Source: an uncultured Clostridia bacterium
Lineage (GTDB): Bacteria > Bacillota > Clostridia > Oscillospirales > Acutalibacteraceae
DNA length: 50,248 nucleotides
NCBI GenBank assembly: GCA_944384855.1
Contig: CALWUY010000034.1
Span: 1-50,248, forward strand
Direction: 5' to 3'
Positions within the stretch are counted from its first letter, which is position 1; every line of letters begins with the position of its first letter. Position numbers and translations under genes: made by a program. A model generated the notes under the pieces. It was not told the origin of the DNA. It made no database searches and saw only the letters and a program-made list of their open reading frames with translations. This document shows, in pieces, positions 5,556 through 22,870 of the stretch.

Positions 5556-8195
5556 ATGAGTAAGCTGAATGATTTATTGAACGGCAGAAAAACAGACGAT
5601 AATATTTTTCCGCTTTTTTGGCAGCACGGCGAAGAAGAGCATGTTTTGAGAAACGAAATACAAAAAATGAAAAGCGCTGATATTGCCGGATTTATTGTAG
5701 AATCAAGACCGCATCCGGATTTTTTAGGGGAACGCTGGTGGAAAGATTTAGATATAATAATAGACGAAGCCAAAAGGCAGGACATGAAGGTCTGGGTTTT
5801 TGACGATAATGCGTATCCGAGCGGTTATTCGGCAGGTTTAATTAAACAAAATAATCCGGACTTAGTAAAAAAGTATCTGCGCGAAGATCATATTGATGCC
5901 GTAGGTCCGTTAAGTGGAAGTTCGATTTTATTGAGACCGTGGTATGATGAAAATGAAACTCTTATATCTGTGGTGGCCGCCCGGAGAACTGACCTTGACC
6001 GTGAGATAGACAGTACATCTTTAATAGATATTACCGAATTTGAAAAAGACGGTGTTTTGTACTGGGATATCCCAGAAGGTGCATGGAGAATTTTTATTTT
6101 CACCTGTACCGGCAAAGGTGGAGAGGAACACACCAAAGATTATCTGAATCCGCTGCAGAAAGAGGCTGTAAAAGCTTATATAGATTATGTTTACGAGACT
6201 CATTATGAGCATTATAAAGATGAATTCGGAAAAACTTTTATGGGATTTTTTACCGATGAGCCGCGTTTCGGCAGTCTTATGTCTTACGAAGCGGTTTTAG
6301 GAAAAACAGACATGGTTATTCCTTTTAAAAACGGTTTAACAGATTTGTTATCTGAAAATCTGGGTGAGGATTTCGTTAAGTATTTACCTTTGCTGTGGTA
6401 TAATAATGATGATTTAAGCGCAAAAGCAAGATATGTGTATATGGATACGGTAAGCACTTTGTTTGCCGATAATTTTCAGGCTCAGATAGGAGATTGGTGC
6501 CGTAAACACGGTGTGAAGTCAATAGGTCATGTTGTTGAGGATAACGGAGCACATGCGCGGCTCGGATATGGAGCGGGACACTTTTTCAAGGTGATGAAAG
6601 GTCAGGATTATTCGGGCTTCGATGTTGTTTATCATGTATTTCCGGAATATACAGACGGAAAGTACAATTCGCCGTTTGGATATCTGGATGCGGACTTCTT
6701 TTATTGGGGATTAGCTAAAATGGCGGTATCTGCCGCCCATATCGACCCCAAAAAAGACGGCATTACGGTGTGTGAGGTGTTCGGTGCATACGGTTGGCAA
6801 GAGGGACTTAAATTAATGAAGTGGCTGACTGATTTTATTTGCGTAAGAGGAGCAAATTTTATTATTCCGCATGCTTTTTCTCCGAAATATCCGGATTCTG
6901 ACTGTCCGCCGCATTTTTATGCTCAGGGACATAATCCTCAGTGGAAAGATTTCAAAATCTGGTCTGGATATGCCAACCGTGTCTGCAGTTTGTTAAAAGG
7001 CGGAAAGCATAAAGCCGATGCTGCGGTTTTATACCATGCGGAGGCTGAATGGGCGGGAAAGGCACAGCCGTTTGAAAAAATCGTCAAGGTTTTAAATCAA
7101 AATCAAATCGACTGTGATATAATTCCGATAGGCGCTTTTTTCAATACGGATAATTTTGAGATTTTAGATGGCACTTTCCGTATAAATAACGAGCTATACC
7201 CTGCGATTATTATACCTTACAGTGAATATTTGCCGAAGATATTTATTAATAAGCTCGCAGAGCTTGCCGATAACGGCGTAACGGTTATTTTTTGTGAGGA
7301 TTATCCTTCTTACGTTTTATCGGATAAGACGGAAAAGTTTTCCTGTGAAGACATATTTTCGGTTTGTGAAAAAATATATAACTGCCATACCGACAGTATT
7401 GCAGAACTGTTGAAGCAAAGAGACACGGAATGGAGCGTAAAAATACCGAAACCTGACAAGTATTTCAGGCATTACCGTTACATTGCCGAAAATATGAATA
7501 TTTACTTTTTGACAAACGAAAGCAAATTTCATACCTTTGATGAAATTGTCGAATTTCCGCTTTGCGACAGTGCCGTAATTTATGATGCAATGGAAAATAA
7601 AGTATATAACGCATCTGCCGAGGTGAACAGCGGACATACTAAAATAAGGATAGTTTTGGAACCGTACCAGTCGCTGTTTGTTATTTTCGGAAGTGATATT
7701 ACATCAGATACATGCCGTGTTATAAATGAAAATTTAAAAGATATTTTGGTACTTGAAGGGCCTTGGAAGATATCGAAATCCACAGCTAAAAGCTATCCTG
7801 ACTTTGAACCGGACCAGAAGCTGAAAACACTCGGAAATATTTCGGCGTATGATATGTATCCTAAGTTTTCCGGAATCGTAAAATATACGACAATGTTTGT
7901 TTTAGATGAAATAAATGGGGATATTTTCCTGAATATAGGAGAAGCGTACGAAACAGTTTCCGTTAAGGTAAACGGTGTATATGCGGGTACCAGGATTGCA
8001 CCTCCATATTTATTTGATATAACTTCTTATGCGGTTATAGGTAAAAACGAAATAGAAATAGAAGTCACAAATACTTTGGCAAAGGCAAAAGGGGAAAACT
8101 GGTTAGACCGGTATATGCCTCAGGAACCTTCGGGATTAATAGGACCGGTAAAAGTGCAAATTAAAAACGCAGATTTATCTGTGCGGGAAGGATAA
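5556..8195 (+). CDS. glycoside hydrolase, GH106-like (alpha-L-rhamnosidase type)
   Basis: An 879-residue cytoplasmic protein with no signal peptide. The N-terminal TIM-barrel-like half has the stretch DMKVWVFDDNAYPSGYSAG (residues about 79-97), typical of the GH106/GH2-related group whose members are often named alpha-L-rhamnosidases. Further barrel motifs are GFFTDEPRFG, HVVEDNGAH and CEVFGAYGWQEG, each with acidic residues that could be catalytic. The C-terminal 140 residues form a jelly-roll carbohydrate-binding module (LNIGEAYETVSVKVNG...NEIEIEVTNTL). It lies 28 bases after the ABC transporter with its own RBS (AAGGAAGAG). Substrate specificity cannot be read from the sequence. The lack of an export signal implies it acts on imported oligosaccharides or glycosides. 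Confidence 0.55.
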   Translation: MSKLNDLLNGRKTDDNIFPLFWQHGEEEHVLRNEIQKMKSADIAGFIVESRPHPDFLGERWWKDLDIIIDEAKRQDMKVWVFDDNAYPSGYSAGLIKQNNPDLVKKYLREDHIDAVGPLSGSSILLRPWYDENETLISVVAARRTDLDREIDSTSLIDITEFEKDGVLYWDIPEGAWRIFIFTCTGKGGEEHTKDYLNPLQKEAVKAYIDYVYETHYEHYKDEFGKTFMGFFTDEPRFGSLMSYEAVLGKTDMVIPFKNGLTDLLSENLGEDFVKYLPLLWYNNDDLSAKARYVYMDTVSTLFADNFQAQIGDWCRKHGVKSIGHVVEDNGAHARLGYGAGHFFKVMKGQDYSGFDVVYHVFPEYTDGKYNSPFGYLDADFFYWGLAKMAVSAAHIDPKKDGITVCEVFGAYGWQEGLKLMKWLTDFICVRGANFIIPHAFSPKYPDSDCPPHFYAQGHNPQWKDFKIWSGYANRVCSLLKGGKHKADAAVLYHAEAEWAGKAQPFEKIVKVLNQNQIDCDIIPIGAFFNTDNFEILDGTFRINNELYPAIIIPYSEYLPKIFINKLAELADNGVTVIFCEDYPSYVLSDKTEKFSCEDIFSVCEKIYNCHTDSIAELLKQRDTEWSVKIPKPDKYFRHYRYIAENMNIYFLTNESKFHTFDEIVEFPLCDSAVIYDAMENKVYNASAEVNSGHTKIRIVLEPYQSLFVIFGSDITSDTCRVINENLKDILVLEGPWKISKSTAKSYPDFEPDQKLKTLGNISAYDMYPKFSGIVKYTTMFVLDEINGDIFLNIGEAYETVSVKVNGVYAGTRIAPPYLFDITSYAVIGKNEIEIEVTNTLAKAKGENWLDRYMPQEPSGLIGPVKVQIKNADLSVREG

Positions 8196-8212
8196 TTATT
8201 TATATCGGTTTA

Positions 8213-8241
8213 TTGACTTCAAAACAAATATATGATAGTAT
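8213..8241 (+). promoter_or_regulatory. sigma-A promoter for the GH28-like gene
   Basis: TTGACT (8213-8218), a 17-base spacer and TAGTAT (8236-8241) lie 36 bases before the ATG, in the gap after the GH106-like gene. The 8277 gene can therefore be transcribed separately. Confidence 0.6.
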
Positions 8242-8276
8242 TTTCACAACTTTAATTCTGTTACGGAGGCAATATT

Positions 8277-9743
8277 ATGTTTTCTTATTCTACATTCAAG
8301 CACAATTACACAAAATCCGCTTATAACTATAAGGAAACTATATCAAATGATTACCGCGTATTTGTAAACGGCAGAGAAATTCCGGTTTACACCTGCAGGA
8401 TTTCTAAATACCCTTTTAATACCATGTGGCCCGGTCATCAACGCTATCTTGATCAGAGTGAGATCGTTTCGTTTGTGAATATTGTAAGCGACGAGGAGAT
8501 TAATATTGAGGTTGAGGTTAATTACGGATATGAACGCGTAATGTTGAAGCCGTATTCAAAAAATATACAGGTTTCGGATGATAACGGCAGAATAAAGTTT
8601 TCGCTTAAAGATAACGGTCAGTTTGTTTTGGAGTGTGACAGTTACCATAGATGTCTTTATATTTTTAACAGCAAACCGATTCTGTGTGATAATAAAGAGG
8701 ACGTGACATACTATTTCGGTCCCGGTGTGCATTTTACAGGTAAACTTTGTCTTAAAGATAATGAAAGCGTTTATGTTGATAAGGACGCCCTGGTATACGG
8801 ATGTATCTATGCGGAAAATGCGGAGAATATAAGAGTTTTTGGTAACGGCGTTTTCGATGACGGAATGGAGGAAAGGGTTTCGGTATACTGTTATGAGGAG
8901 TATACTAACGGAAATATTAAATTTTACGATTGCCGTAACATAAAGGTTGAGGGCGTACTTTTTAAAAATTCTGCGATATGGTGCGTCAATCTTTTTGGCT
9001 GTTACAATGTAGATATTGATGATATCAAGGTGTTCGGTCAGTGGAGATATAATACAGACGGTATAGATATCGTTAATTGTCAGAATATATTCGTGAAAAA
9101 TTCTTTTATACATTCCTTTGACGATACGATTACAATCAAAGGAATAGACCGTTATATAAATATTGACAATAAAAATATCCACATTGACAACTGCGTGCTT
9201 TGGTGCGACTGGGGCAAGACCTGTGAAATCGGAATAGAAACCGCCTGCAGAGAATATACTGATATATCCTTTACAAACTGTGATATTTTGCGTGCGGGAA
9301 ATACTGCTTGCGATATTCAGAACGGCGACTGCGCACAGGTGCATAATATAAGTTTTGAAAACATAAATGTTGAATATAATGTTTTTGATACGCCTGCCGT
9401 TTATCAGGAAAATGATGAGCAGATTTACGAAAAGGAAAACGAAATTGAAATTCCGGCTTTGATATCCGTAAGAAATCACGACTTGCGGGCAATTGAAGCT
9501 GCCTGGGATCTGGGAAAAATGGCAGAGATTGATCTCAGCGGCATTAAAGTAAGCTCAGTATTTGATGTGGTTTTTAAAAACCTCAATGTATATTATGACG
9601 AAGGTTTACCGCTTGCCGGAGGTGAACCTGATATAAAGATAATAATTGTAAAGGACCGAAAGGATGCCGAGTATGAAAATATTACAGTGGAAAATATCAC
9701 TGTAAACGGAAGAAAATTTGATTTTAAAATAAAAAACAGTTAA
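8277..9743 (+). CDS. GH28-like right-handed beta-helix carbohydrate enzyme
   Basis: A 488-residue protein without signal peptide. A short N-terminal beta domain (about 20-125) precedes a parallel beta-helix with many N-I/V-x-V/I repeats (about 150-480). The GH28 polygalacturonase hallmarks are partly present: NTDGIDIVNC supplies the first catalytic Asp and SFDDTITIKG the DD pair. The classical GHG motif appears replaced by CEIGIE, so it is a distant family member whose substrate could be something other than pectin (dextran-type or rhamnogalacturonan, for example). A good RBS (GGAGG) precedes the ATG. The gene sits beside the GH106-like enzyme, which suggests joint breakdown of a plant or host polysaccharide fragment. 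Confidence 0.65.
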   Translation: MFSYSTFKHNYTKSAYNYKETISNDYRVFVNGREIPVYTCRISKYPFNTMWPGHQRYLDQSEIVSFVNIVSDEEINIEVEVNYGYERVMLKPYSKNIQVSDDNGRIKFSLKDNGQFVLECDSYHRCLYIFNSKPILCDNKEDVTYYFGPGVHFTGKLCLKDNESVYVDKDALVYGCIYAENAENIRVFGNGVFDDGMEERVSVYCYEEYTNGNIKFYDCRNIKVEGVLFKNSAIWCVNLFGCYNVDIDDIKVFGQWRYNTDGIDIVNCQNIFVKNSFIHSFDDTITIKGIDRYINIDNKNIHIDNCVLWCDWGKTCEIGIETACREYTDISFTNCDILRAGNTACDIQNGDCAQVHNISFENINVEYNVFDTPAVYQENDEQIYEKENEIEIPALISVRNHDLRAIEAAWDLGKMAEIDLSGIKVSSVFDVVFKNLNVYYDEGLPLAGGEPDIKIIIVKDRKDAEYENITVENITVNGRKFDFKIKNS

Positions 9744-9749
9744 TAAATC

Positions 9750-9778
9750 TTGACAAATTTTAAAAAAGGTGATATACT
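9750..9778 (+). promoter_or_regulatory. strong sigma-A promoter of the T-box operon
   Basis: A perfect TTGACA (9750-9755), a 17-base spacer and TATACT (9773-9778). Transcription should start near 9785, exactly where the T-box leader begins. Confidence 0.85.
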
Positions 9779-9784
9779 ACTAAA

Positions 9785-10045
9785 AAATGCGTTGAAGGAA
9801 TTATTTCCTGTGTTTATTTGATTTCAGAGAGCCGGCGTTTGGTGAGAGCCGGTACGGTGATACAGGTTAAGTCTCATTCCCGAGCATAACGGCTGAAATC
9901 AGTAAGCCGTTACGGCATGCTCCGTTACCATGGCAGGAAGCTTGTTTGAGCTTTATTGAGTGACCGTATTATTACGGTAATCAGGGTGGTACCGCGAATA
10001 AACTATTCGTCCCTGAGACTGCATAGGCAGTCTCAGGGATTTTTT
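9785..10045 (+). promoter_or_regulatory. T-box leader (tRNA-sensing riboswitch), apparent specifier CTC (Leu)
   Basis: The leader carries the invariant T-box AGGGTGGTACCGCG (9983-9996) and a competing terminator (10011-10045). Stem I elements are visible: AGAGAG near 9826, GGTGAGAGCC (9841-9850) as the apical motif, and ATTCCCGAGC (9876-9885). Aligned by eye with the well-known B. subtilis glyQS leader (specifier then ATTCTTGAGC), the triplet before ATTC is CTC at 9873-9875, a leucine codon. Uncharged tRNA-Leu binding would stabilise the antiterminator and allow transcription of the operon. A leucine specifier fits a LeuA-like first gene. The type is near certain; the amino acid call rests on my alignment. 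Confidence 0.9.
10011..10045 (+). terminator. T-box regulated intrinsic terminator
   Basis: CCCTGAGACTGC (10011-10022) pairs perfectly with GCAGTCTCAGGG (10027-10038), followed by a U-run (10040-10045). The hairpin's 5' arm lies just past the antiterminator region. Confidence 0.9.
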
Positions 10046-10109
10046 GTTGCTCAAGATTACTGCGGCATGATAAGTTTCCGAATATTATTTTTTTGAAAGG
10101 AAGATACAA

Positions 10110-11495
10110 ATGAAAAAAATCAAAATCTCGGATATGACACTTTGCAGAAATACCTCTTTAAGTTTTAAAGAGCGTATCGAAATTGCAAGACTGCTTGAAA
10201 GATTAAATGTTGATTCTATAGAACTGCCGGTAATAGAAAACATAAAGTCGGATACTTTGCTTATAAGAACAATAGCATCTTTTGTAAAGGACAGCGTTTT
10301 ATCTGTGTGCGGAGGATACACGCAGCAAACGGTACAGTTAGCGGCGGCTTCGCTTAACAGCGCAAAGATGGGCGAAATCAGAATAGAAATTCCGTTAAGT
10401 CCGGTCGGAATGGAATATACACTTCATAAAAAGGCTCCGGCTATAATTGAGCTTATCAAGGAATTGGTATCGTCTGCCAAGGAAAAATGCCAAAGAGTTC
10501 AGTTCTGTGCTGTTGACGCTACCCGCGCGGAGGAATCGGTTTTGTCAGAAGCAATTACGGCGGCTGTTGAAAGCGGAGCCACCTCTGTTACGGTATGCGA
10601 TACCGCGGCGGAAATGCTGCCGGACGATTTTGCCGCTTTTGTCGATAAGATGATTAAGGATATACCGGCGCTCGGCAATACCGAAGTCGGAGTTTGCGTG
10701 GAAAACAAAAACGGCATGGCGTCGAGTGCCTCTATTCTCGCCGTAAAGGGAAAAGCTGATAATATAAAAACCGATGTTTCCGGCGAGACAGCAGATCTTG
10801 CGGTTATCGCCGCCATTATAAAGAACTGCGGTAATAACTGCGGCTTTGAGTGCGGCATCAAGCACACCGAAATAAGCAGAATTATTAAACAGATTACCCG
10901 TATTACCGAGCCTAACACGGCAAGTATGCCGGCGGTCAAAGCCGAAGACGAAAGCGCTATAGAACTTGACGCCAATGATGACCGTGACGCGGTAGCGGCA
11001 GTTATTGAGAGTTTGGGATATGATTTATCCGAGGATGATATATCAAAGGTTTATGACGAGTTTAAAATTATTGCGGCCAAGAAGCGAATAGGCGCAAAAG
11101 AACTGGATGCCATAGTAGCGTCCACTGCGCTGCAGGTTCCGCCTACATACAAGCTTATCAGCTATGTAATTAATAACGGAAATATTATATCTTCATCCGC
11201 ACAGATCAGAATTTCCAAGCAGGATACGGAGATAGAAGGTATATGTATAGGAGACGGACCGGTAGACGCTGCGTTCAGGGCTATCGAGCAGATTATAGGA
11301 AGACATTATGAGCTTGACGATTTTCAGATTCATACCGTCACAGAAGGACGTGACTCGATGGGATCTGCCCTTGTAAAATTAAGGGAAAACGGAAAGCTTT
11401 ATTCGGGAACAGGTATTTCGACTGATATATTGGGCGCAAGCATACGGGCTTATATAAACGCCCTCAACAAAATAGCCTACGAGGAGGAGAATTGA
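10110..11495 (+). CDS. 2-isopropylmalate synthase-like protein with degenerate catalytic site and intact LeuA regulatory domain
   Basis: 461 residues with the layout of LeuA: an HMGL-type barrel (about 1-265), a linker, and a LeuA allosteric/dimer domain (about 340-455). The last is well conserved: GDGPVDAAFRAI, YELDDFQIHTVTEGRDSMG, STDILGASIRAYINALN. The catalytic barrel is not. The usual DTTLRDGEQ is DMTLCRNTS (R and metal-ligand D lost at 12-13). The HxH metal motif HCHND is replaced around VCVENKNG (195-202), and the ERAGN-type loop is absent. LeuA condenses acetyl-CoA with 2-oxoisovalerate using a divalent metal held by these residues, so this protein should not do that by the known mechanism. 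It is the first gene behind a Leu-type T-box, and the next gene starts 1 base later. It may be a leucine-sensing pseudo-enzyme or may have a new activity. Confidence 0.75.
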   Translation: MKKIKISDMTLCRNTSLSFKERIEIARLLERLNVDSIELPVIENIKSDTLLIRTIASFVKDSVLSVCGGYTQQTVQLAAASLNSAKMGEIRIEIPLSPVGMEYTLHKKAPAIIELIKELVSSAKEKCQRVQFCAVDATRAEESVLSEAITAAVESGATSVTVCDTAAEMLPDDFAAFVDKMIKDIPALGNTEVGVCVENKNGMASSASILAVKGKADNIKTDVSGETADLAVIAAIIKNCGNNCGFECGIKHTEISRIIKQITRITEPNTASMPAVKAEDESAIELDANDDRDAVAAVIESLGYDLSEDDISKVYDEFKIIAAKKRIGAKELDAIVASTALQVPPTYKLISYVINNGNIISSSAQIRISKQDTEIEGICIGDGPVDAAFRAIEQIIGRHYELDDFQIHTVTEGRDSMGSALVKLRENGKLYSGTGISTDILGASIRAYINALNKIAYEEEN

Positions 11496-11496
11496 T

Positions 11497-14004
11497 ATGA
11501 AACTTTCATTTTCAACCAAAGGCTGGCATGACAGCACTTTTGAGCAATTTTGCAATATAGCCTTGGATCTGAAGTTTCAGGGAATAGAACTTCATAATAT
11601 CCATAACAGACTTTTTACTGATAAAGACGGCGCTTTTCACGATTATACTGCCGCCGCCACAATGAGAAAACTTTATGAAATGAAGCTGAGCATTCCGTGC
11701 ATAGATTCAATATGCGACTGCGGCGACAAGGAACGGTACGAGGACTGTCTCAAAGAGATTAAAGAATGCATGGCTATCGCTTGTAATCTCAAAATACCGG
11801 CCGTAAGGATAAGAGCTATCGGAACGGGAGATACCGCAGAAGCTTTTGAAAATGCCGAAAAAATCATCAGGGCGGTTCTCCCCGACGCCGAACAGCAGGG
11901 CATAGTTCTTCTTGCGGAGACTTCGGGCATATTCTGTGATACCTCAAAATTGCTTGAATTGCTTAATACCTTTGCCTGCGACAATCTGGCGGCATTGTGG
12001 GACATGTTTTCAACGTATTTCATCGGTAAGGAAGATCCCGAGACTACAATCAAAAATTTGGGAGCATACGTAAGGCATGTTCATATTAAGGACGCTCAGG
12101 CAAACGGCAGCGGAAATGAATTCTGCCTTATGGGTGAGGGCGAAATGCCGGTAGAAGAAATGATGCTGGCGCTGCGTTCGGTAAATTACGATGGATTTAT
12201 ATCGCTTGAATGGAATCCGGAATGGTGTGTGGAACTTGACGATATAGAAGTGATATTCTCGCAGTTTGTAAACTATATGAAGCAGTACGGAGATACTTCC
12301 AAAAATGAACCGGCGCTTTATTACAACCGCGCTCATACCGGTAAATATGTCTGGGAAAAAGACAGGCTTATTGACTGCACGTTCTCAGATGTCTTAGACC
12401 GTATGGTAGAGGAATTTCCGGATCAGTACGCTTTTAAATATACTACGCTCGACTACACGAGGACTTACAGCGAATTCCGCGATGATGTGGATACTTTTGC
12501 CCGTTCACTTATTGCTTTGGGCGTCAAGCCGGGAACGCATGTAGCGGTATGGGCGGCAAATATACCTCAGTGGTATATAGCTTTCTGGGCAACGGTAAAG
12601 ATAGGAGCCGTACTGGTTACAGTAAATACTGCTTATAAGATTCATGAAATCGAATATCTGCTCAGGCAGTCGGATACGCATACGCTGATAATGTCCGAAG
12701 GTGCAAAGGACATTGCTTACGGCGAAATCGTAGCCGAGCTTTGTCCTGAACTGGCGTCTTTGAAACCCGGAAAACCTTTGCACGCAAAACGTCTTCCGTT
12801 CCTTCGCAACTGTATAACCGTCGGTTTCAGGCAGGCAGGATGTCTTACCTGGAAAGACGCTGTTGACAGGGCAGACAGGGTGCCTGTAAGCGAAGTGTAC
12901 AGACTTGCTGCCCAGGTTGACAAGGATGATGTCTGCAATATGCAGTACACGTCCGGAACTACAGGATTTCCTAAAGGTGTTATGCTGACACATTACAATG
13001 TAGTCAACAACGGCAAATATATAGGAGATCACATGGAGCTTTCCACAGCGGACAGAATGATGATACAGGTGCCTATGTTCCACTGTTTCGGAATGGTACT
13101 TTCCATGACAGCGTCAATGACTCACGGAACCACAATGTACCCGATGCCGTACTTTTCGCCGAAATCTTCGCTTGCGTGTGTTCATAACGAGCATATTACG
13201 GCGTTTAACGGCGTGCCGACTATGTTTATTGCAATGATGCAGCATGCCGACTTTGCAAAGACAGACTTCTCTTATATGAGAGTAGGCATTATGGCCGGTT
13301 CAAACTGTCCCGCGGAGCTTATGAAAAAGGCTACGGAAGTTATGAATATGAAGGAAATAGTATCTGTTTACGGACAGACTGAGGCAAGTCCCGGATGTAC
13401 GATGAGCAGTTATTATGACTCAATAGAGGTCAGAACAGAGACGGTAGGCAGCGCTTTCGCAAACGTAGAATGCAAGATAGTGGATCCTGAGACGGGACTT
13501 GACTGTCCGGACGGGGTAAACGGCGAGTTTGTGGCGCGAGGATATAATATTATGAAGGGCTATTACAAAATGCCCAAGGCTACAGCCGAAACCATAGATG
13601 AAAACGGCTGGCTGCACACGGGAGATCTTGCCTGCCGCGACGCTGACGGCAATTACCGTATCACCGGACGTCTTAAGGATATGATAATCAGAGGCGGAGA
13701 AAATATTTATCCTAAAGAGATAGAGGAATTTATTTACACCTGTCCGAAGGTACGCGATGTTCAGGTAATAGGTGTTCCGGATAAACAGTACGGTGAAGAG
13801 ATAATGGCCTGCATTATTCTTAAAAAAGGCGAAGAAATGACCGAAGAGGAAATGAAGTCATATATTGCTTCTCACATGGCGCGCCATAAAGTACCGCGTT
13901 ATATTGATTTTGTCGACAGCTTCCCGATGAACGCGGCAGGAAAAATTCTTAAATACAAAATGCGGGAAGACGCCGCAGAAAAGTTAGGGCTGAACAAGGA
14001 CTGA
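11497..14004 (+). CDS. fusion of xylose-isomerase-like TIM barrel and AMP-forming acyl-CoA synthetase
   Basis: 835 residues in two domains. Residues about 1-262 form an AP-endonuclease-2/xylose-isomerase-like barrel with apparent metal ligands kept (E in LLAETSG, D in LWDMF, H in HVHIKD, E in SLEWNPEW). Residues about 280-835 form an ANL-superfamily ligase of the FadD type: P-loop YTSGTTGFPKGV (from 484), YGQTEASPG, HTGDL, GRLKDMIIRGGENIYPKE and the C-terminal lysine motif NAAGKILK. The ligase should activate a carboxylic acid with ATP and CoA. The barrel could isomerise or hydrate a related substrate. No frameshift or stop separates the domains and the linker is short, so the fusion looks genuine. 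RBS GAGGAGG overlaps the previous gene end. The physiological substrate is unknown. Confidence 0.8.
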   Translation: MKLSFSTKGWHDSTFEQFCNIALDLKFQGIELHNIHNRLFTDKDGAFHDYTAAATMRKLYEMKLSIPCIDSICDCGDKERYEDCLKEIKECMAIACNLKIPAVRIRAIGTGDTAEAFENAEKIIRAVLPDAEQQGIVLLAETSGIFCDTSKLLELLNTFACDNLAALWDMFSTYFIGKEDPETTIKNLGAYVRHVHIKDAQANGSGNEFCLMGEGEMPVEEMMLALRSVNYDGFISLEWNPEWCVELDDIEVIFSQFVNYMKQYGDTSKNEPALYYNRAHTGKYVWEKDRLIDCTFSDVLDRMVEEFPDQYAFKYTTLDYTRTYSEFRDDVDTFARSLIALGVKPGTHVAVWAANIPQWYIAFWATVKIGAVLVTVNTAYKIHEIEYLLRQSDTHTLIMSEGAKDIAYGEIVAELCPELASLKPGKPLHAKRLPFLRNCITVGFRQAGCLTWKDAVDRADRVPVSEVYRLAAQVDKDDVCNMQYTSGTTGFPKGVMLTHYNVVNNGKYIGDHMELSTADRMMIQVPMFHCFGMVLSMTASMTHGTTMYPMPYFSPKSSLACVHNEHITAFNGVPTMFIAMMQHADFAKTDFSYMRVGIMAGSNCPAELMKKATEVMNMKEIVSVYGQTEASPGCTMSSYYDSIEVRTETVGSAFANVECKIVDPETGLDCPDGVNGEFVARGYNIMKGYYKMPKATAETIDENGWLHTGDLACRDADGNYRITGRLKDMIIRGGENIYPKEIEEFIYTCPKVRDVQVIGVPDKQYGEEIMACIILKKGEEMTEEEMKSYIASHMARHKVPRYIDFVDSFPMNAAGKILKYKMREDAAEKLGLNKD

Positions 14005-14005
14005 A

Positions 14006-14839
14006 ATGATAAACGGAATATATGCGATTGACGCACATTGCCATATTTATCCTGAAAAAATAGCCGAGCGGGCGGTAGCCGGAACAGACAATTTTTACGG
14101 ACTTCATTCAGATTATAACGGCACGGCGGATAACCTTATAGCAAGAGGTACCGAAGCGGGAATAGATCATTTTATAGTTCAGTCGGTGGCAACCACGCCA
14201 AAGCAGGTAAAAAGCATAAACGAATTTATCGCGGACAGCGTAAGAAAGTCGAACGGAAAGTTTACGGGACTTGGTACTTTGCACCCTGACAGCGATGATA
14301 TAAAAGGTGATATCGATCATCTTACGGAATTGGGATTGAAAGGCGTAAAGCTTCATCCGGATATACAGGCGTTCAAGATTGACGATTACCGCTGTCTGAA
14401 AATTTATGAGCAGTGTGAAGAAAGAAAGCTTCCCATACTTATGCATACCGGAGATTACAGATACGATTTTTCAAATCCTAACCGAATGAGACCCATACTT
14501 CAGATTTATACCTCGCTTACGGTAGTAGGGGCGCATTTGGGAGGATGGTCGGTATGGGATGATGCCTGTGAAAAATTAGCGGGTTTCGATAATTTTTATG
14601 TTGACTGTTCTTCAAGCTTTAAGTTTATGGAAAAGCAGAAAGCAAGGGAGATAATCCGCAGGTACGGCGCGGACAGAGTGCTTTTTGGAACCGATTATCC
14701 TATGTGGTCTTACAAGGACGAAATAGAATATTTACTTTCTTTGGAACTTGACGAAAACGAAATAATGTGTATACTTAATAGTAACGCAAAAAAAATATTC
14801 GGAGTTGATAATGATGAAAGATTACAAGATAGCAACTAA
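14006..14839 (+). CDS. amidohydrolase family 2 (ACMSD-like) metal-dependent hydrolase or decarboxylase
   Basis: 277 residues forming one TIM barrel of the amidohydrolase-2 family. Metal-binding and active-site motifs are visible: DAHCHIYP (HxH, residues 10-17), GVKLHPDIQ, LMHTGD, VGAHLGGW and FGTDYPMW (catalytic Asp). Members hydrolyse or non-oxidatively decarboxylate small aromatic or keto acids, but the substrate cannot be deduced. It begins one base after the stop of the fusion gene and its 3' end overlaps metY, so it is translationally coupled within the T-box operon and probably works on the same metabolite as its neighbours. Confidence 0.8.
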   Translation: MINGIYAIDAHCHIYPEKIAERAVAGTDNFYGLHSDYNGTADNLIARGTEAGIDHFIVQSVATTPKQVKSINEFIADSVRKSNGKFTGLGTLHPDSDDIKGDIDHLTELGLKGVKLHPDIQAFKIDDYRCLKIYEQCEERKLPILMHTGDYRYDFSNPNRMRPILQIYTSLTVVGAHLGGWSVWDDACEKLAGFDNFYVDCSSSFKFMEKQKAREIIRRYGADRVLFGTDYPMWSYKDEIEYLLSLELDENEIMCILNSNAKKIFGVDNDERLQDSN

Positions 14840-16103
14840 GTGCGTACAGGGCGGTTATACACCTGGCAACGGAGAACCCAGGCAGATACCGATCATTCAA
14901 AGCACCACATTCAAGTATAATACAAGCGAGGATATGGGAAAGCTTTTTGATCTGGAGGCAAGCGGATATTTTTATACGCGTTTGCAGAATCCGACTAATG
15001 ATATGGTGGCGGCAAAGATATGTGAACTGGAAGGCGGCACTGCGGCTATGCTTACTTCTTCCGGGCAGGCGGCTTCTTTCTATTCAGTGTTCAATATAGC
15101 TTCCTGCGGAGATCATGTTGTATGTTCATCGGCGATATACGGAGGCACATATAACCTTTTTGCAGTAACGATGAAGAGAATGGGCATTGAGTTTACTTTT
15201 GTCGCCCCGGACTGTTCGGATGACGAACTTAACGCGGCATTCAGGGACAACACAAAAGCGGTATTCGGAGAGACGATAGCCAATCCGGCGCTTGCGGTGC
15301 TTGATATAGAAAGATTTGCCAAAGCGGCTCATTCACACGGAGTGCCGCTTATAATAGACAATACCTTCGCTACGCCTGTAAACTGCCGTCCGTTTGAATG
15401 GGGAGCGGATATAGTAACCCATTCCACGACAAAGTATATAGACGGTCACGGTGCGAGCGTAGGAGGATGCATAGTAGATTCCGGCAAATTTGACTGGACC
15501 CGATATCCCGAAAAATTCCCGGGGTTATGTACTCCCGATGAAAGCTATCACGGAGTGGTTTATACTGAGCGTTTCGGACTCGGGGGAGCGTTTATAACAA
15601 AAGCTACCGCACAGCTGATGAGAGATTTCGGTTCCATTCAGTCTCCGCAAAATGCTTTTTTGATAAACTTAGGACTTGAAAGCCTGCATTTGAGAATTAA
15701 GAAGCATTGTGAGAACGGTTTGGCAGTAGCTGAGTTTTTACAGTCAGATAACAGGATTTCCTGGGTGACTTACCCGGGCTTAAAGGGTGACAAATACTAT
15801 GAATTAGCGCAGAAGTATCTGCCTAACGGAAGCTGCGGAGTGGTAAGCTTCGGAGTAAAAGGAGGCAGAAAAGGCGCTGAGGCGTTTATGAAAAATCTCA
15901 AAATTGCGGCTGTTGAGACCCATGTTGCAGATGCCCGCAGCTGTTGTTTGCATCCGGCAAACGCAACCCACAGACAAATGAACGACCAAGAGCTTGCCGC
16001 GTGCGGAATTTCTCCGGACCTGATACGTTTTTCCTGCGGCATAGAAGATGCCGAAGATTTGATAGCCGATATCAGGCAGGCGCTTGACGCGGCTCAGATT
16101 TAA
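14814..16103 (+). CDS. metY: O-acetylhomoserine aminocarboxypropyltransferase (sulfhydrylase)
   Basis: 429-residue PLP enzyme of the Cys/Met metabolism family that makes homocysteine (or methionine) from O-acetylhomoserine and sulfide (or methanethiol). The PLP lysine is K207 in THSTTKYIDGHG. Other family blocks are YTRLQNPTND, SSGQAASFYS and the C-terminal RSCCLHPANATHRQ and RFSCGIEDAEDL. Of two adjacent ATGs (14811, 14814) I chose 14814 because it lies 9 bases after GGAG; 14811 would add one Met. The 5' end lies inside the amidohydrolase gene, implying coupling. It ends the T-box operon, ahead of a terminator. With metA next it completes direct sulfhydrylation. Confidence 0.9.
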   Translation: MKDYKIATKCVQGGYTPGNGEPRQIPIIQSTTFKYNTSEDMGKLFDLEASGYFYTRLQNPTNDMVAAKICELEGGTAAMLTSSGQAASFYSVFNIASCGDHVVCSSAIYGGTYNLFAVTMKRMGIEFTFVAPDCSDDELNAAFRDNTKAVFGETIANPALAVLDIERFAKAAHSHGVPLIIDNTFATPVNCRPFEWGADIVTHSTTKYIDGHGASVGGCIVDSGKFDWTRYPEKFPGLCTPDESYHGVVYTERFGLGGAFITKATAQLMRDFGSIQSPQNAFLINLGLESLHLRIKKHCENGLAVAEFLQSDNRISWVTYPGLKGDKYYELAQKYLPNGSCGVVSFGVKGGRKGAEAFMKNLKIAAVETHVADARSCCLHPANATHRQMNDQELAACGISPDLIRFSCGIEDAEDLIADIRQALDAAQI

Positions 16104-16112
16104 AATCGGCTT

Positions 16113-16140
16113 AAAATCCCCTTTACAAAAAGGGGATTTT
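16113..16140 (+). terminator. intrinsic terminator between metY and metA
   Basis: AAAATCCCCTTT (16113-16124) pairs perfectly with AAAGGGGATTTT (16129-16140), and the T-run is part of the stem. It separates the T-box operon from metA, though readthrough is possible. Confidence 0.8.
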
Positions 16141-16184
16141 GGTTTATTATAGAGTATATTATTTAAGAAAAGGTAGAAACACAA

Positions 16185-17102
16185 ATGCCTATAAAAATTC
16201 CAAACGATTTGCCGGCGGTAAAAACACTTAACAATGAAAACATATTTGTAATGACCGAAACCAGGGCTATTACGCAGGATATACGTCCGCTTAAGATTTT
16301 ACTGCTGAATTTAATGCCTAAAAAGATTGAAACCGAAACACAGCTGTCGCGTTTGCTGGGGAATTCACCTCTGCAGGTTGACCTGGAACTTATTCATACC
16401 AAGAGTCATAAATCTAAAAATACTTCGGCAGAGCATCTGCTGGCTTTTTACAAGACTTTTGACGATATAAAGGACAGATCTTTTGACGGAATGATAATTA
16501 CCGGCGCTCCGGTGGAACATTTAGAGTTCGAGCAGGTAGAATACTGGGAAGAGCTTTGTGAGATAATGGAATGGACAAAGACTCATGTTCACAGTACGTT
16601 TCATATCTGCTGGGGAGCACAGGCAGGTTTATATTATCATTACGGTATAAAAAAGTATCCGCTTGAGAAAAAGCTTTTCGGAGTGTTTCCGCATACCGTG
16701 GATTATAAAAAGTCCATTTTGTTCCGGGGATTTGACGATGTATTCATGGTGCCCCAGTCACGGCATACCACAGTAAGGACAGAGGATATCAAAACTGTAA
16801 AGGATTTGCGTATTTTGGCTTCTTCGCGGGAGGGCGGAGTTTACGCGGTCACAACCAAAGGAGGCAGGCAGATTTTCATCACAGGGCATTCGGAATATGA
16901 CAGTGATACGCTGGCCAATGAGTATTTCAGGGATTTAAAGGAAGGAAAGCCAATTGACATGCCTGTAAACTATTTTCCCCAAAATGACGTAAAAAAGCAA
17001 CCGGTAGTAACCTGGAGGTCACATGCGAATCTTCTCTATTCCAACTGGCTGAACTACTTTGTTTACCAGACCACACCTTATGACATCAATAAAATAAAAT
17101 AA
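16185..17102 (+). CDS. metAA: homoserine O-acetyltransferase (MetA type)
   Basis: 305 residues of the MetA family, which acylates homoserine for methionine synthesis. The nucleophile C142 is in [10 protein letters not shown]. Residue 111 in APVEHLEFE is Glu; in this family Glu111 favours acetyl-CoA and Gly111 favours succinyl-CoA, so acetyl specificity is expected, although such proteins are often labelled succinyltransferases. That matches MetY next door, which uses O-acetylhomoserine. The ATG at 16185 follows AAAAGG at a normal distance. The gene lies between two terminators and is probably transcribed partly on its own. Confidence 0.92.
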
Positions 17103-17217: not shown

Positions 17218-17281
17218 ATCTACATAAAACAGTAGGTCTGATTATCATTTTTAATATTATTTAACAAATGAGGTGCGGAAT

Positions 17282-17995
17282 ATGATAAAAGTTACTGTAT
17301 ATAATGAGTTTATTCATGAAAGAGAAGATGAAAACACAAGGTCAGTCTATCCTGACGGTATACATAATGCTATTAAGAGTGCGGTTGAATCTGACGAGAT
17401 TACGGTAAAAACTATCACTCTGGACGATGTAAAGAACGGTTTGGACCGGCAGCTGCTTGATGATACGGATGTGTTTATCTGGTGGGGACATATGGCTCAT
17501 GATCTGGTGCCTGACGAAGTGGCCGAAGCGGTACATCAGGCGGTATTGAAAGGTATGGGTATAATATTCCTTCATTCAGGTCATCATTCAAAGCCTTTCA
17601 AGCTATTGATGGGAACACCCTGCAATCTTACCTGGCGCGAGGACGGCGACAGAGAACTTGTCTGGGTATGCAATCCCGCTCACCCCATAGCCAAAGGTAT
17701 AGGAAGGTTTATAAAACTTGATCATGAGGAAACCTACGGTGAACCGTTTTCAATTCCCGAGCCTGATGAGCTTGTATTTATAGGCTCTTTTGAGGGAGGA
17801 GAGGTATTCAGGGCAGGCTGCTGTTACAGGCGCGGCAACGGAAAAGTATTTTATTTCCAGCCCGGTCATGAAACATTTCCCACATTTAAAAATCCTGAAA
17901 TTATAACGGTTATAAAGAACGCTGTTCATTGGGCAAACCCGGATTACAGAGTCAAAGAGCTCGAATGTCCTAACGTAAAAAAACCCTTGGAGTGA
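17282..17995 (+). CDS. ThuA-like domain protein
   Basis: 237-residue cytoplasmic protein of the ThuA (trehalose utilisation) family, a class-I glutamine-amidotransferase-like flavodoxin fold without the amidotransferase cysteine. Family motifs are DVFIWWGHMAHD, GMGIIFLHSGHHSKPF, THE-type histidines near HPIAKGI and the C-terminal GHETFPTF. ThuA proteins occur with Gfo/Idh dehydrogenases in pathways that oxidise disaccharides or glycosides to 3-keto sugars; their own reaction is poorly defined. I chose ATG 17282 because GAGGTGCGG precedes it; a GTG at 17273 would lie within that RBS. It is the first gene of a seven-gene cluster. Confidence 0.8.
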   Translation: MIKVTVYNEFIHEREDENTRSVYPDGIHNAIKSAVESDEITVKTITLDDVKNGLDRQLLDDTDVFIWWGHMAHDLVPDEVAEAVHQAVLKGMGIIFLHSGHHSKPFKLLMGTPCNLTWREDGDRELVWVCNPAHPIAKGIGRFIKLDHEETYGEPFSIPEPDELVFIGSFEGGEVFRAGCCYRRGNGKVFYFQPGHETFPTFKNPEIITVIKNAVHWANPDYRVKELECPNVKKPLE

Positions 17996-18000
17996 TAATT

Positions 18001-19044
18001 TTGAAAAAAGTTGCAGTTATAGGATACGGCGGTCAGGGAGCATGGCACTGTACGCAAGTATTAAAAAGTGATGTAGTAAGCCTTAAAGGCGTGTATGACA
18101 TAAAGGAAAACCGCAGGGAAGCGGCAAAGGCGAACGGTATATTTGTATATGAAAACAATGAGGCGATTTTTGCCGACGGTGATGTGGATATAGTGGTTGT
18201 AGCTACACCGAATGACGTTCACGAGGAATTAGTGGTAAATGCGCTTAAAAGCGGCAAAAATGTTATCTGTGAAAAGCCCGTGGCGCTTTCGGTAGAATCG
18301 TTTGACCGGATGGTGCAGGCGGCGGAAAAGGCCGGGAAAGTGCTGTCGGTTCATCAGAACAGGCGTTGGGACGTAGATTTTCTGGGTGTAAAAAAGGTTA
18401 TTTCAAGCGGTGAAATCGGCGATGTTATAAGGATAGAATCGCGTATCCACGGTTCGCGCGGAATACCGAGCGACTGGCGCTGTGAAAAGGAACACGGCGG
18501 AGGAATGATTCTTGACTGGGGAGTACACCTTATAGATCAGATGCTTCAGCTGATAACAGATAAAGTAACAAAAGTTTACTGTATGAATACACATATCACA
18601 AACTCGCAGGTGGATGACGGTTTTCGTTTGGAGCTGGGATTTGAGAGCGGCAAAACTGCTTTGGTTGAGGTAGGTACATACAATTTTTTGCCGCTGCCCC
18701 GTTTTTACATGCAGTGTAAAGATGGGAGTCTCTGTTTGGAGGACTGGCAGAAAAAGGCGCATGTGGCAAAGCTTACCGCGTGGATAGAAAAGGATGTTAC
18801 TCCGGTACAGAATGCCGCAGGGATCACAAAGACAATGGCGCCGAGAGATAATTTGACGCTTGATGAATATTATACCGAAATTCCCAAAAGCGATGTTCAC
18901 GATTTTTACCGCAATTTTGTTCTGGCTTCAGACGGAAAAGCGGAGCAGTTAATAAAAAACAGTGAAGTCAGAAGGGTACTGAGGGTCATGACCGCCTGCT
19001 TTGAGTCGGATGAAAAAGGCGCGGTATTAAAGGTGGATATATGA
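18001..19044 (+). CDS. Gfo/Idh/MocA family NAD(P)-dependent sugar oxidoreductase (first copy)
   Basis: 347 residues: an N-terminal Rossmann domain (VAVIGYGGQGAWH, nucleotide loop) with the EKP motif (CEKPVALS), and a C-terminal alpha/beta domain with DWGVHLIDQM, which supplies the usual catalytic Asp/His pair. Members oxidise or reduce a sugar or inositol hydroxyl. The start is TTG 18001, 8 bases after GGAG; a GTG at 17992 overlaps the RBS and the thuA stop. It overlaps the next gene by 4 bases (ATGA), so it is coupled. The substrate is unknown; beside ThuA a glycoside 3-dehydrogenase is a reasonable guess. Confidence 0.85.
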   Translation: MKKVAVIGYGGQGAWHCTQVLKSDVVSLKGVYDIKENRREAAKANGIFVYENNEAIFADGDVDIVVVATPNDVHEELVVNALKSGKNVICEKPVALSVESFDRMVQAAEKAGKVLSVHQNRRWDVDFLGVKKVISSGEIGDVIRIESRIHGSRGIPSDWRCEKEHGGGMILDWGVHLIDQMLQLITDKVTKVYCMNTHITNSQVDDGFRLELGFESGKTALVEVGTYNFLPLPRFYMQCKDGSLCLEDWQKKAHVAKLTAWIEKDVTPVQNAAGITKTMAPRDNLTLDEYYTEIPKSDVHDFYRNFVLASDGKAEQLIKNSEVRRVLRVMTACFESDEKGAVLKVDI

Positions 19045-20033
19045 TAAAATTCGCGACAGTGGGCAGAGGTCCTATTGTTGACTGCTTCATAGAAGGAGCA
19101 AAGCTGACAGGTAAATTCTGTTTAGAGGCGGTTTATTCGAGAAACCGAGAAACCGGAGAAGAATTTGCAAAGAAGCATAACTGCGGCAGGGTATATACGG
19201 ATTTGAAAGATTTGGCCGGTGATCCCGATATACAGGCGGTGTACATTGCGTCTCCGAATATATGCCATGCAAAGCAAAGCGATATCTTGCTTAAAGGCGG
19301 AAAGCATATAATATGCGAGAAACCTATAGCGGTAAGCGCGGCTGAATATGCAAAAGTAAAAAGTACAGCCGACAGTTTAAATCTGATTTACATGGAAGCG
19401 ATAATTCCGAGATATGTTGAAAATCATGATGCTGTTTTGGAGGCGGTAGGGAAGATAGGAAACATCACGGTTGCGAAAATAGATTACTGTCAGCTTACGA
19501 GCCGGTATGAAAGGCTGAAAAGAGGAGAAAAGGTAAATATTTTTGATATGTCGCTGGCGGCGGGGGCGCTTATGGATATAGGAGTTTACTGTGTTTATGC
19601 GGCGGTGGATCTGCTCGGAATGCCGAAATCGGTAAAAGCGTCGGCGTCGTTCCTTTCCGATGGAGCCGACAGCGCAGGCGCTGCTGTATTCGGATACGAT
19701 AATTTCACTGCATCCGTAACTTACAGCAAAGTAGGACAGAGTATGGCACCCTGTGAGATAATAGGCGACGAAGGTTCTGTAATAATAGAAAAAATAGGAC
19801 TTTATCAGGGAGCGTATCTTTTGAAAAACGGAGAAAAAACGGCGCTTTTCAAAGAACACAGAAAAGAGGAACTTATGGGTATGGAGGCGGAGGCATTCGC
19901 GGACTTTATAAACGGCAGACGAATGAACGTGTATAAAGACGCGGGCGAGCTTTGCCTCAAAGCACACAAGTGCATGGACATAATCAAGCGGAAAGCTGAT
20001 ATAAAATACACATACAAGGAGGAAAATATATGA
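19041..20033 (+). CDS. Gfo/Idh/MocA family oxidoreductase (second copy)
   Basis: 330 residues of the same superfamily but a different subgroup, nearer dihydrodiol dehydrogenase/1,5-anhydrofructose reductase types. The Rossmann start is FATVGRGPIVDCF, the lysine motif is CEKPIAVS, and the C-terminal motif is GALMDIGVYCVYAA, where Tyr replaces the His seen in the previous gene. This suggests a distinct step, such as reducing a keto sugar made by a neighbour. The ATG overlaps the stop of the previous gene and the 3' end overlaps the next ATG (ATGA), so three genes are coupled. Confidence 0.85.
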   Translation: MIKFATVGRGPIVDCFIEGAKLTGKFCLEAVYSRNRETGEEFAKKHNCGRVYTDLKDLAGDPDIQAVYIASPNICHAKQSDILLKGGKHIICEKPIAVSAAEYAKVKSTADSLNLIYMEAIIPRYVENHDAVLEAVGKIGNITVAKIDYCQLTSRYERLKRGEKVNIFDMSLAAGALMDIGVYCVYAAVDLLGMPKSVKASASFLSDGADSAGAAVFGYDNFTASVTYSKVGQSMAPCEIIGDEGSVIIEKIGLYQGAYLLKNGEKTALFKEHRKEELMGMEAEAFADFINGRRMNVYKDAGELCLKAHKCMDIIKRKADIKYTYKEENI

Positions 20034-20944
20034 AACTGGGAATAGTTTCGGCTATTTATGACGGCTTTAGTTTTGAGGAGATGATAGACAGCGCGGCGGA
20101 AAATGGTTATGAATGTGTCGAGGTTGCCTGCTGGCCGCAGGGCAAGGCAGAACGCAGGTATGCCGGTGTTTCGCACATTGATGTCGAAAACACTTCCGAA
20201 GAATACATAGCTTATGTGAAGGATTACTGCAACTCTAAGGGTATAGAGATTTCCTCACTTGCGTTTTATCCGAATACAATGGACGGAGATCTTACAAAAA
20301 GGCAGGCAAACATAGAACATCTTAAAAAGGTAATAAATATGAGCTCGCTTATGGGTGTTAACATGGTAACCACATTCATAGGAAGAGACCAAACCAAGAC
20401 GGCAGAGGAAAATCTTGAAATATTTAAGGAAATATGGCCGGATATTATAAAATTCGCCGAACAGAAGAAGGTGAAGATAGCTATTGAAAACTGCCCGATG
20501 CTGTTCGGAAAAGATCAGTGGCCCGGGGGACAGAATTTATTCACGTCTCCGAAGCTTTGGCGGCAGATGTTTAATATAATCGACAGCGATTATTTCGGAA
20601 TAAACTATGATCCGAGTCATTTTATATGGCAGCAGATGGATTATATAAAGCCGATCTATGAGTTCAAGGATAAAATATTCCATATTCATTTCAAAGATAT
20701 AAAGGTTTATAAAGACAGACTTGACGACGCCGGTATTATGGCATATCCGCTTGATTATATGAGTCCGAAGCTTGTAGGTCTCGGCGATGTGGACTGGGGC
20801 AAATATGTTTCCGCGCTTACTGATATAGGGTTTGACGGATACGCCTGTGTAGAGGTCGAAGACAAAGCTTTTGAGGGTACAAAGGAAAAAATACTTGATT
20901 CTGTAACTTTAAGCTACCGTTATATGCGGCAGTTTGTAATTTAA
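20030..20944 (+). CDS. sugar phosphate isomerase/epimerase (xylose isomerase-like TIM barrel)
   Basis: 304 residues of the AP-endonuclease-2 barrel family. Apparent metal ligands are E in KIAIENCPM, D in NYDPSHFIWQ, H in FHIHFKDIK and E in CVEVEDKAF. These barrels epimerise, isomerise, dehydrate or eliminate across keto sugars. The RBS AAGGAGG lies at the end of the previous gene and the genes overlap by 4 bases. The call is firm at family level; the reaction cannot be assigned, and it could act on the keto sugar produced by the adjacent dehydrogenases. Confidence 0.85.
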   Translation: MKLGIVSAIYDGFSFEEMIDSAAENGYECVEVACWPQGKAERRYAGVSHIDVENTSEEYIAYVKDYCNSKGIEISSLAFYPNTMDGDLTKRQANIEHLKKVINMSSLMGVNMVTTFIGRDQTKTAEENLEIFKEIWPDIIKFAEQKKVKIAIENCPMLFGKDQWPGGQNLFTSPKLWRQMFNIIDSDYFGINYDPSHFIWQQMDYIKPIYEFKDKIFHIHFKDIKVYKDRLDDAGIMAYPLDYMSPKLVGLGDVDWGKYVSALTDIGFDGYACVEVEDKAFEGTKEKILDSVTLSYRYMRQFVI

Positions 20945-20964
20945 AAAATTTGGAGGCAAAAGTA

Positions 20965-22116: not shown

Positions 22117-22130
22117 CAGAGGTGTAAAAA

Positions 22131-22847
22131 ATGGACATAGGTATTCAATTATATTCTGTTCGAGACGGCATGGAAACCGATTTTGAGGGTACTTTGAAGA
22201 AAATAAGCGAACTCGGTTATACAAGCGTTGAATTCGCGGGTTTTTACGGCAAAACCGCTGACGAAGTAAACCGCCTGCTTGAACAGTATAATTTAAAGCT
22301 CAGCGGCACACATTCCTCTTTTGACGATCTTCTTAACAACTATGAGGAAACGGTTGCATATCATAAAGCGATAGGAAATAAGAATTATATAATTCCGGGA
22401 TACGATTTGTGGTCACAGGGGAAACTGGACAGGTTCGTTGAGCAGATAAACCCGATTTGCGAAAGGCTCGCCAAAGACGGAATAACATTGGGATTTCACA
22501 ATCACAATAAAGAATTCGAGGTGCTTGAGAACGGAGAAGTGGTTTACGAGCAGCTGATTTACCGTACGAATCTCAGATTAGAGATAGATACATACTGGGC
22601 TTTTGTCGGGATGAAAAATCCATTGGGACTGCTTGACAGGCTTGCGGACAGGGTGAATTTCGTACACGTCAAAGACGGTATGGCTGACGGAAGCGGCAAG
22701 CCTTTAGGCATGGGAGAAGCGCCTGTAGCTGAAATTGTAAAGAAGGCGCAGGCTATGGGAATACCCATGGTTGTGGAAAGTGAAACCTGCAATCCTACAG
22801 GACTTGCGGAAGCCGAAATCTGTATAAATTATCTTAAGACATTATAA
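22131..22847 (+). CDS. sugar phosphate isomerase/epimerase (tandem copy A)
   Basis: 238 residues, a compact AP-endonuclease-2 barrel. Motifs: IGIQLYSVRDGM at the N-terminus, GFHNHNKEF, EIDTYWAFV (Asp ligand), VHVKDG (His) and VVESETCNP (Glu). It closely resembles the next gene over the first 60 residues and at every motif, so the pair looks like a tandem duplication. RBS AGAGGTG precedes the ATG. As a late member of the cluster it probably processes a keto-sugar intermediate; the reaction is unassigned. Confidence 0.85.
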   Translation: MDIGIQLYSVRDGMETDFEGTLKKISELGYTSVEFAGFYGKTADEVNRLLEQYNLKLSGTHSSFDDLLNNYEETVAYHKAIGNKNYIIPGYDLWSQGKLDRFVEQINPICERLAKDGITLGFHNHNKEFEVLENGEVVYEQLIYRTNLRLEIDTYWAFVGMKNPLGLLDRLADRVNFVHVKDGMADGSGKPLGMGEAPVAEIVKKAQAMGIPMVVESETCNPTGLAEAEICINYLKTL

Positions 22848-22870
22848 TTTCTTTTTACGGGGTGACTCAG

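Follow-up and report, generated by a model that had tools for sequence, protein, structure and literature searches.

A conserved leucine T-box operon of Clostridia that pairs a LeuA-like protein lacking catalytic motifs with a candidate isovalerate-CoA ligase

We analyzed a 50,248-nucleotide stretch of DNA (the window; contig CALWUY010000034.1, positions 1 to 50,248 of the forward strand, assembly GCA_944384855.1) from an uncultured Clostridia bacterium of the Acutalibacteraceae (order Oscillospirales). Our subject is an operon in which a leucine T-box leader precedes genes for a LeuA-like protein without LeuA catalytic motifs (here called LeuAx), a xylose-isomerase-like TIM barrel fused to an acyl-CoA ligase (the fusion), an amidohydrolase, and MetY (Table 1). 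The gaps between LeuAx and the fusion and between the fusion and the amidohydrolase are 1 base each, and metY, with in-frame ATGs at 14811 and 14814, starts 26 to 29 bases within the amidohydrolase gene. A first-pass annotation of this DNA had described the promoter, the T-box, and the four packed genes with these gaps and this overlap, and all were confirmed together with their coordinates. Because 21 promoter-like sites were counted in the region versus 17.1 expected, the location of the site just 5' of the T-box is weightier than its consensus match. The spacing suggests that a single promoter drives all four genes, and metA is possibly part of the same operon through read-through past the hairpin that follows metY.

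Table 1. Features of the operon and its downstream flank (window coordinates)
Feature	Position	Strand	Evidence or remarks
Sigma-70 type promoter, TTGACA-17-TATACT	9750..9778	+	11/12 consensus bases
T-box leader, RF00230	9783..10017	+	132.3 bits, E 2.9e-29; gathering score 93
Specifier codon CUC (leucine)	9873..9875	+	T-box model alignment and lower Stem I pairing
T-box antiterminator, GGGTGGTACCGCG	9984-9996	+	
Leader terminator, hairpin and T run	10009..10040	+	14 pairs
LeuAx, LeuA-like, 461 aa	10110..11495	+	HMGL-like and LeuA_dimer; LRDG and HxH lost; proposed leucine sensor
Fusion gene	11497..14004	+	AP_endonuc_2, AMP-binding, and AMP-binding_C; proposed isovalerate-CoA ligase
Fusion, xylose-isomerase-like TIM barrel half	~11497-12360		
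Fusion, AMP-forming acyl-CoA ligase half	~12361-14004		
Amidohydro_2 metallohydrolase	14006..14839	+	Metal-site motifs retained
metY, O-acetylhomoserine sulfhydrylase	14811..16103	+	Cys_Met_Meta_PP; TIGR01326 564.5 vs cut-off 495.1 (from 14814)
Hairpin and T-rich stretch between metY and metA	16111..16142	+	
metA, homoserine O-acetyltransferase type	16185..17102	+	NF047918 509.8 vs cut-off 460.5

The relatives compared were the best 80 of at least 571 stretches from species genomes (E ≤1e-3; ordinary LeuA may be included among these stretches), and the LeuAx proteins of the kept relatives are 49 to 74% identical. The fusion is the next gene after LeuAx in all 78 relatives with a contig long enough (2/80 are too short), so the gene arrangement is not due to chance; it also follows LeuAx in 19/19 further loci (L120 to L138; the L128 copy is cut by the contig start). 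The amidohydrolase adjoins the fusion in 48/63 relatives. MetY is next in 8/59 relatives, with metA following in 7 of these 8, which rules out MetY and MetA as core parts; metY, counted in the first pass as the fourth operon gene, is present in the window operon but is a minority addition. No metabolic reason was found for the position of the methionine genes (14811 to 17102) behind a leucine T-box in this minority of relatives. LeuAx was detected in 38/197 genomes of the order (E ≤1e-80) and in 25/246 genomes of the class (E ≤1e-60), 23 of these 25 lying outside the order. This spread and the constant adjacency of the fusion support conservation across Clostridia, and the neighborhood survey called for in the first-pass annotation, in case the genes were together only in this genome, found them together in the relatives as well. 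A full-length fusion is present in 75/197 genomes of the order, 40 of them without a LeuAx match. Twenty loci were taken to inspect such fusions, and in 11 of them the ligase gene is accompanied by a T-box motif. Locus L097 (genome G134) carries a LeuAx fragment at the contig edge. An unfused version was seen at L104 (5052 to 7954), where the ligase and a TIM-like protein are separate neighbors behind a T-box.

The antiterminator motif was present upstream of LeuAx in 71 of 79 scanned regions (78 relatives plus the window), and Rfam at the gathering score detected the LeuAx leader in 7/7 loci tested. A leader was also found at LeuAx, by motif or Rfam, in 13 of the 19 further loci. Specifiers were parsed by pairing over 121 loci, window included, with near-identical loci kept in the counts. 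For 83 motif-bearing leaders before LeuAx, the parse gave CUC in 75 (10 with an alternative parse) and CUG, a leucine codon as well, in 2 (L053 and L135). Six were unparsed, of which L039, L045, L076, and L050 read CUC by eye and L046 and L047 are cut by the contig end, bringing the leucine specifiers to 81/83 (79 CUC and 2 CUG, with 2 cut off). Leaders directly before fusions without LeuAx read CUC in 10/10 (7 parsed; L091, L093, and L099 by eye). A serine specifier (UCU, one base upstream) was ruled out, as its first base is U or C in relatives whereas CUC is constant. The first-pass proposal that the operon is switched by the charging of one tRNA is supported by this leucine specificity and its conservation. 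The Bacillus ilv-leu leader has a CUC specifier, and the leucine T-box leaders of leuA and ilv-leu operons belong to the same RNA family as the window leader. However, those leaders precede the synthesis pathway, whereas the window leader precedes an acid ligase and a LeuA-like protein that is most likely inactive as LeuA. Excerpts from one survey place leuA behind a T-box in Geobacter and Pelobacter (PMC2494555); neither that survey nor PMC3766115, another survey of T-boxes, contains the terms acyl-CoA, CoA ligase, or CoA synthetase in the available text.

LeuAx shares its domain order with 2-isopropylmalate synthase (LeuA), with PF00682 at 88.4 bits and PF08502 at 107.9 bits, but it scores below the LeuA equivalog cut-offs (TIGR00973, 238.7 versus 598.7; NF002086, 256.1 versus 532). 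Motifs were compared between 36 LeuAx proteins (the window, every fifth of the other 79, and L120 to L138) and 9 catalytic relatives. The aspartate of LRDG and both histidines of HxH are lost in 36/36 LeuAx, with the R of LRDG kept in 5; we take LRDG and HxH to be the LeuA catalytic motifs, and both were found in the catalytic rows compared. The regulatory motif G-x-G-x-STD[IV], common to LeuA, is retained in 35/36. The lost motifs and sub-cut-off scores rule out LeuAx as the true LeuA of the genome. LeuAx most likely performs no LeuA chemistry. In the tree, LeuAx is one clade separate from LeuA (support 100/100); the catalytic rows were chosen with an LRDG filter (first M, 400 aa, LRDG; 14 loci) and are catalytic by construction, and at least four further LRDG proteins missed by the filter (one each in L110 to L113; none in L117 and L118) are not part of the tree. 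Similarity within LeuAx is higher in the regulatory C-domain than in the catalytic N-domain (0.64 versus 0.41), whereas catalytic LeuA shows the opposite (0.49 for the regulatory and 0.63 for the catalytic domain, with the divergent row L110 left out). The predicted structure of LeuAx (pLDDT 87, pTM 0.59) has Mycobacterium tuberculosis LeuA as its top match and the leucine-bound 3fig among its first four structural matches. The protein retains the fold, and D8, M101, Y103, K108, D136, and R139 are among the invariant N-domain residues still in place. These features match, short of proof, what a sensor would look like, and LeuAx is probably a leucine sensor.

True LeuC, IlvD, and LeuA were scored in the 197 genomes of the order as proteins passing the model cut-off. 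LeuC was found in 120 genomes, namely, 1/38 with LeuAx versus 119/159 others (Fisher p 2.4e-17, relatedness ignored). IlvD was over the cut-off in 4/38 LeuAx genomes versus 96/159 others, and true LeuA was present in 56/197 genomes, none with LeuAx. LeuAx occurs in 12 families, 9 of which also hold LeuC genomes, so the switch recurs and is not the mark of one lineage. The window's own genome (completeness, 97%) gave no IlvC match at 1e-5 and no IlvD match at E 1e-150, its LeuC matches were all below the cut-off, its LeuB model score was 138 bits versus a cut-off of 353, and no LeuA was found besides LeuAx. Two other HMGL-like proteins were read and ruled out as LeuA; one we take to be citrate-synthase-like and the other, beside an apparent membrane subunit, presumably resembles oxaloacetate decarboxylase alpha. 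Judged by these gene counts, the operon is found in place of the classical leucine pathway, and the gut Clostridia that carry it seem to have lost the normal pathway. A different state, true LeuA with a full-length fusion but no LeuC over the cut-off and no LeuAx match, was seen in G003, G026, G043, G014, G018, G037, G137, G158, and G169 and could represent an intermediate.

In about 30 of the 80 relatives (27 to 32, depending on the gene), a set of partner genes lies near LeuAx, usually upstream. It consists of one or two AMP ligases with helix-turn-helix (HTH) and cupin domains, a P-loop protein, the alpha, beta, and gamma subunits of a ferredoxin-dependent 2-oxoacid oxidoreductase (VOR), and IlvE. 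In G039, a genome of the same genus, this set runs straight into the T-box, LeuAx, the fusion, and the amidohydrolase (L136). In the own genome, it lies on a separate contig (L119) in the order AUC T-box, ligase, GUA T-box, ligase, P-loop protein, VOR alpha/beta/gamma, and IlvE, with VOR and IlvE named through 74 to 83% identity to the relatives' copies. Copies at L027 exceed their model cut-offs (VorB, 534 versus 399; IlvE, 487 versus 307). The own genome thus holds the ligase, VOR, and IlvE with the classical pathway absent, which is the gene content of reductive carboxylation. At L003 and L012, the leader before the P-loop/VOR genes parses as CUC. At L003, this leader is situated 5' of the P-loop gene and the end of IlvE directly precedes LeuAx, so that LeuAx can share the upstream leader.

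The HTH-cupin ligase type occurs in 133/197 genomes (E ≤1e-130; weaker matches span the ligase half only), 37/38 with LeuAx versus 96/159 others. These sister ligases (L119, 9332 to 14258, and relatives) have N-terminal HTH and cupin domains, identified by Pfam in the L027 and L045 copies, and a T-box each; the HTH domain on an acyl-CoA ligase suggests that the ligase may also regulate its own gene. Leaders before 42 HTH-cupin ligases specify valine in 24 cases (GUA, 21; GUC, 3) and isoleucine in 15 (AUC), and the parse failed for 3, of which L066 and one of the L136 leaders show GUA on inspection by eye and L018 is truncated. In a tree of the 42 ligases, a single branch (100/99) splits those with isoleucine leaders (15, plus 1 unparsed) from those with valine leaders (24, plus 2 unparsed). 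Leader specificity as parsed is that of the ligase clade, and no parsed leader was seen to specify the amino acid of the other ligase type. Both leaders before the sister ligases of the own genome pass the Rfam gathering score of 93, one at 109.0 bits and the other, at 93.2 bits, only just.

The ligase domain of the window fusion was recognized by PF00501 (307.9 bits) and PF13193 (66.3 bits), and ligase motifs are retained across 114 fusions (SGTTGFPKG in 114, YGQTE in 113, and GKI.K in 106). The E-D-H-E metal tetrad of the TIM domain is intact in 17/18 fusions from loci without a LeuAx match versus just 31/96 LeuAx-linked fusions, which rules out an essential isomerase step by this domain. 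TIM chemistry therefore seems to be in the course of being lost in LeuAx operons, where a structural or docking role is possible. Because the nearest folds to this domain are assorted isomerases, epimerases, and one dehydratase, no function was read off from them. The metal motifs of the amidohydrolase are retained.

We consider it likely that branched short-chain fatty acids feed the synthesis of branched-chain amino acids here and that the operon, LeuAx included, serves as the leucine arm of this supply. Uncharged tRNA-Leu would let transcription through the CUC T-box, and the ligase domain of the fusion would convert isovalerate to isovaleryl-CoA, which VOR would carboxylate reductively to 2-ketoisocaproate and IlvE would aminate to leucine. 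The two sister ligases with their AUC and GUA T-boxes would act likewise for isoleucine and valine, the three ligases together activating 2-methylbutyrate, isobutyrate, and isovalerate. LeuAx would most likely be a leucine-binding subunit for feedback control of the ligase. The first-pass idea of a dedicated pathway for a small molecule, in which an acid is activated by CoA, gains support from the conserved operon. The accompanying statement that the set fits no leucine operon had to be abandoned given the leucine-specific leader, the apparent replacement of the classical pathway, and VOR and IlvE nearby in about 30/80 relatives. A fuller evolutionary reading, for and against which we find the scales evenly balanced, is that LeuAx descends from a 2-isopropylmalate synthase and has shed catalysis, tightened its regulatory domain, and become the feedback subunit of an isovalerate ligase. 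Leucine control would then be dual (uncharged tRNA on transcription and free leucine on the enzyme), with one T-box and one acid ligase per branched-chain amino acid. The ATP phosphoribosyltransferase HisZ-HisG, with its HisRS-like regulatory subunit, is a case of an enzyme-derived regulator in the synthesis of the same amino acid; it offers an analogy only, as the proteins are unrelated and the LeuAx interaction is a proposal. Many rumen bacteria need branched volatile fatty acids. Their synthesis of leucine, valine, and isoleucine from these acids has been reported since the 1960s, including a rumen route from isovalerate to leucine by carboxylation (cited in an excerpt of PMC7356843). The precursor, product, and habitat are the same as proposed here; the rumen work, as excerpted, provides the chemistry, and the present analysis adds candidate genes, T-box wiring, and a pseudo-LeuA partner.

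The ligases might instead make branched acyl-CoA primers for membrane fatty acids, with amino acid synthesis secondary, in the manner of the methylbutyryl-CoA synthetase MbcS of Staphylococcus aureus, which feeds FabH (excerpts of PMC10026030). The sister ligase tested (L027) indeed has MbcS as its best named match, but its score of 430.8 does not reach the cut-off of 850. The sister ligases differ from MbcS in their T-boxes and in the HTH and cupin domains at their N-termini; the window ligase is of a different, TIM-fused type. MbcS prefers 2-methylbutyrate and isobutyrate and is poor on isovalerate (same excerpts), so a separate isovalerate ligase is to be expected. Primer synthesis as the main role is improbable in view of control by uncharged tRNA-Leu, -Ile, and -Val, the VOR and IlvE genes in the cluster, and the absence of LeuC and of IlvD from most carriers. 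Other anaerobes use VOR and IlvE, both reversible enzymes, in fermentation, and a further reading is that IlvE, VOR, and the ligases run backwards, degrading branched-chain amino acids to acids. However, T-boxes turn on under starvation, AMP-forming ligases consume ATP, and the de novo pathways are absent in most carriers, so that we hold degradation to be very unlikely. We give as little credence to a new de novo route to the leucine skeleton in which LeuAx, with the isomerase-like and amidohydrolase proteins, still performs some Claisen-type condensation. The retained fold and invariant N-domain residues, and a gene order that mimics LeuA followed by an isomerase, would suit it. It conflicts with the absence of the LRDG aspartate and both HxH histidines in 36/36 LeuAx, with a TIM metal tetrad intact in only 31/96 LeuAx-linked fusions, with an amidohydrolase not next in 15/63 loci, and with an N-domain less alike than the C-domain (0.41 versus 0.64).

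Several observations weigh against the operon as the leucine arm of a supply from branched acids. The substrate, direction, and interaction are proposals from sequence, the ligase domain is over no substrate-specific model cut-off, and VOR and IlvE, which can have other uses, lie outside the operon of the window. The TIM domain, the amidohydrolase, and MetY/MetA are left outside the explanation. Leaders are not universal: the antiterminator motif was not found in 8/79 regions upstream of LeuAx, nor a T-box by Rfam at the gathering score in these 8 loci, and neither motif nor Rfam gave a leader at LeuAx in L120, L122, L123, L128, L129, and L134 (6/19 further loci). Many T-boxes before sister ligases fall below the gathering score, which only L045 passed in a set of 7 loci and which none passed in the 8 loci without the motif at LeuAx; by E value, a T-box was detected in all 7 below-gathering loci tested (67.7 to 87.4 bits, E 1.8e-12 or better), 6 before a ligase and 1 (L003) before the P-loop gene. 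Full-length fusions are present in 35 of the 38 LeuAx genomes, with partial matches only in G166 and G192 and no match at E 1e-180 in G105. G082, whose locus is L134, is the sole genome with both LeuAx and LeuC; it also has IlvD, which is retained in three further LeuAx genomes. Conversely, 40/159 LeuAx-negative genomes are also without LeuC, and of the 40 genomes in which the fusion occurs without LeuAx, 28 keep LeuC, so replacement is not the sole role of the fusion.

While the chemistry is known, the gene set is undescribed as far as the literature was searched, and the regulatory architecture is new. In the open literature searched, titles and abstract beginnings gave no description of these genes, of one-tRNA-per-ligase wiring, or of a pseudo-LeuA. 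LeuAx is a probable new pseudoenzyme sensor and would be a striking case of a biosynthetic enzyme retained as a sensor after pathway loss. The operon and its partners would provide a testable gene set for chemistry of the 1960s in many uncultured Clostridia, with the amino acid of each acid ligase named by its own T-box. They would let branched-acid dependence be predicted from genomes and would account for apparent leucine auxotrophy.

In the window, GH106 rhamnosidase-like and GH28 proteins, probably for pectin degradation, are encoded just upstream of the operon (5556 to 9743). Positions 17273 to 23683 encode ThuA, three GFO/IDH/MocA oxidoreductases, and three xylose-isomerase-like proteins, a cluster that we take to resemble sugar or glycoside-cleavage gene sets. 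In one relative, a ZMP/ZTP riboswitch lies downstream of the operon (L045, 13475 to 13560).

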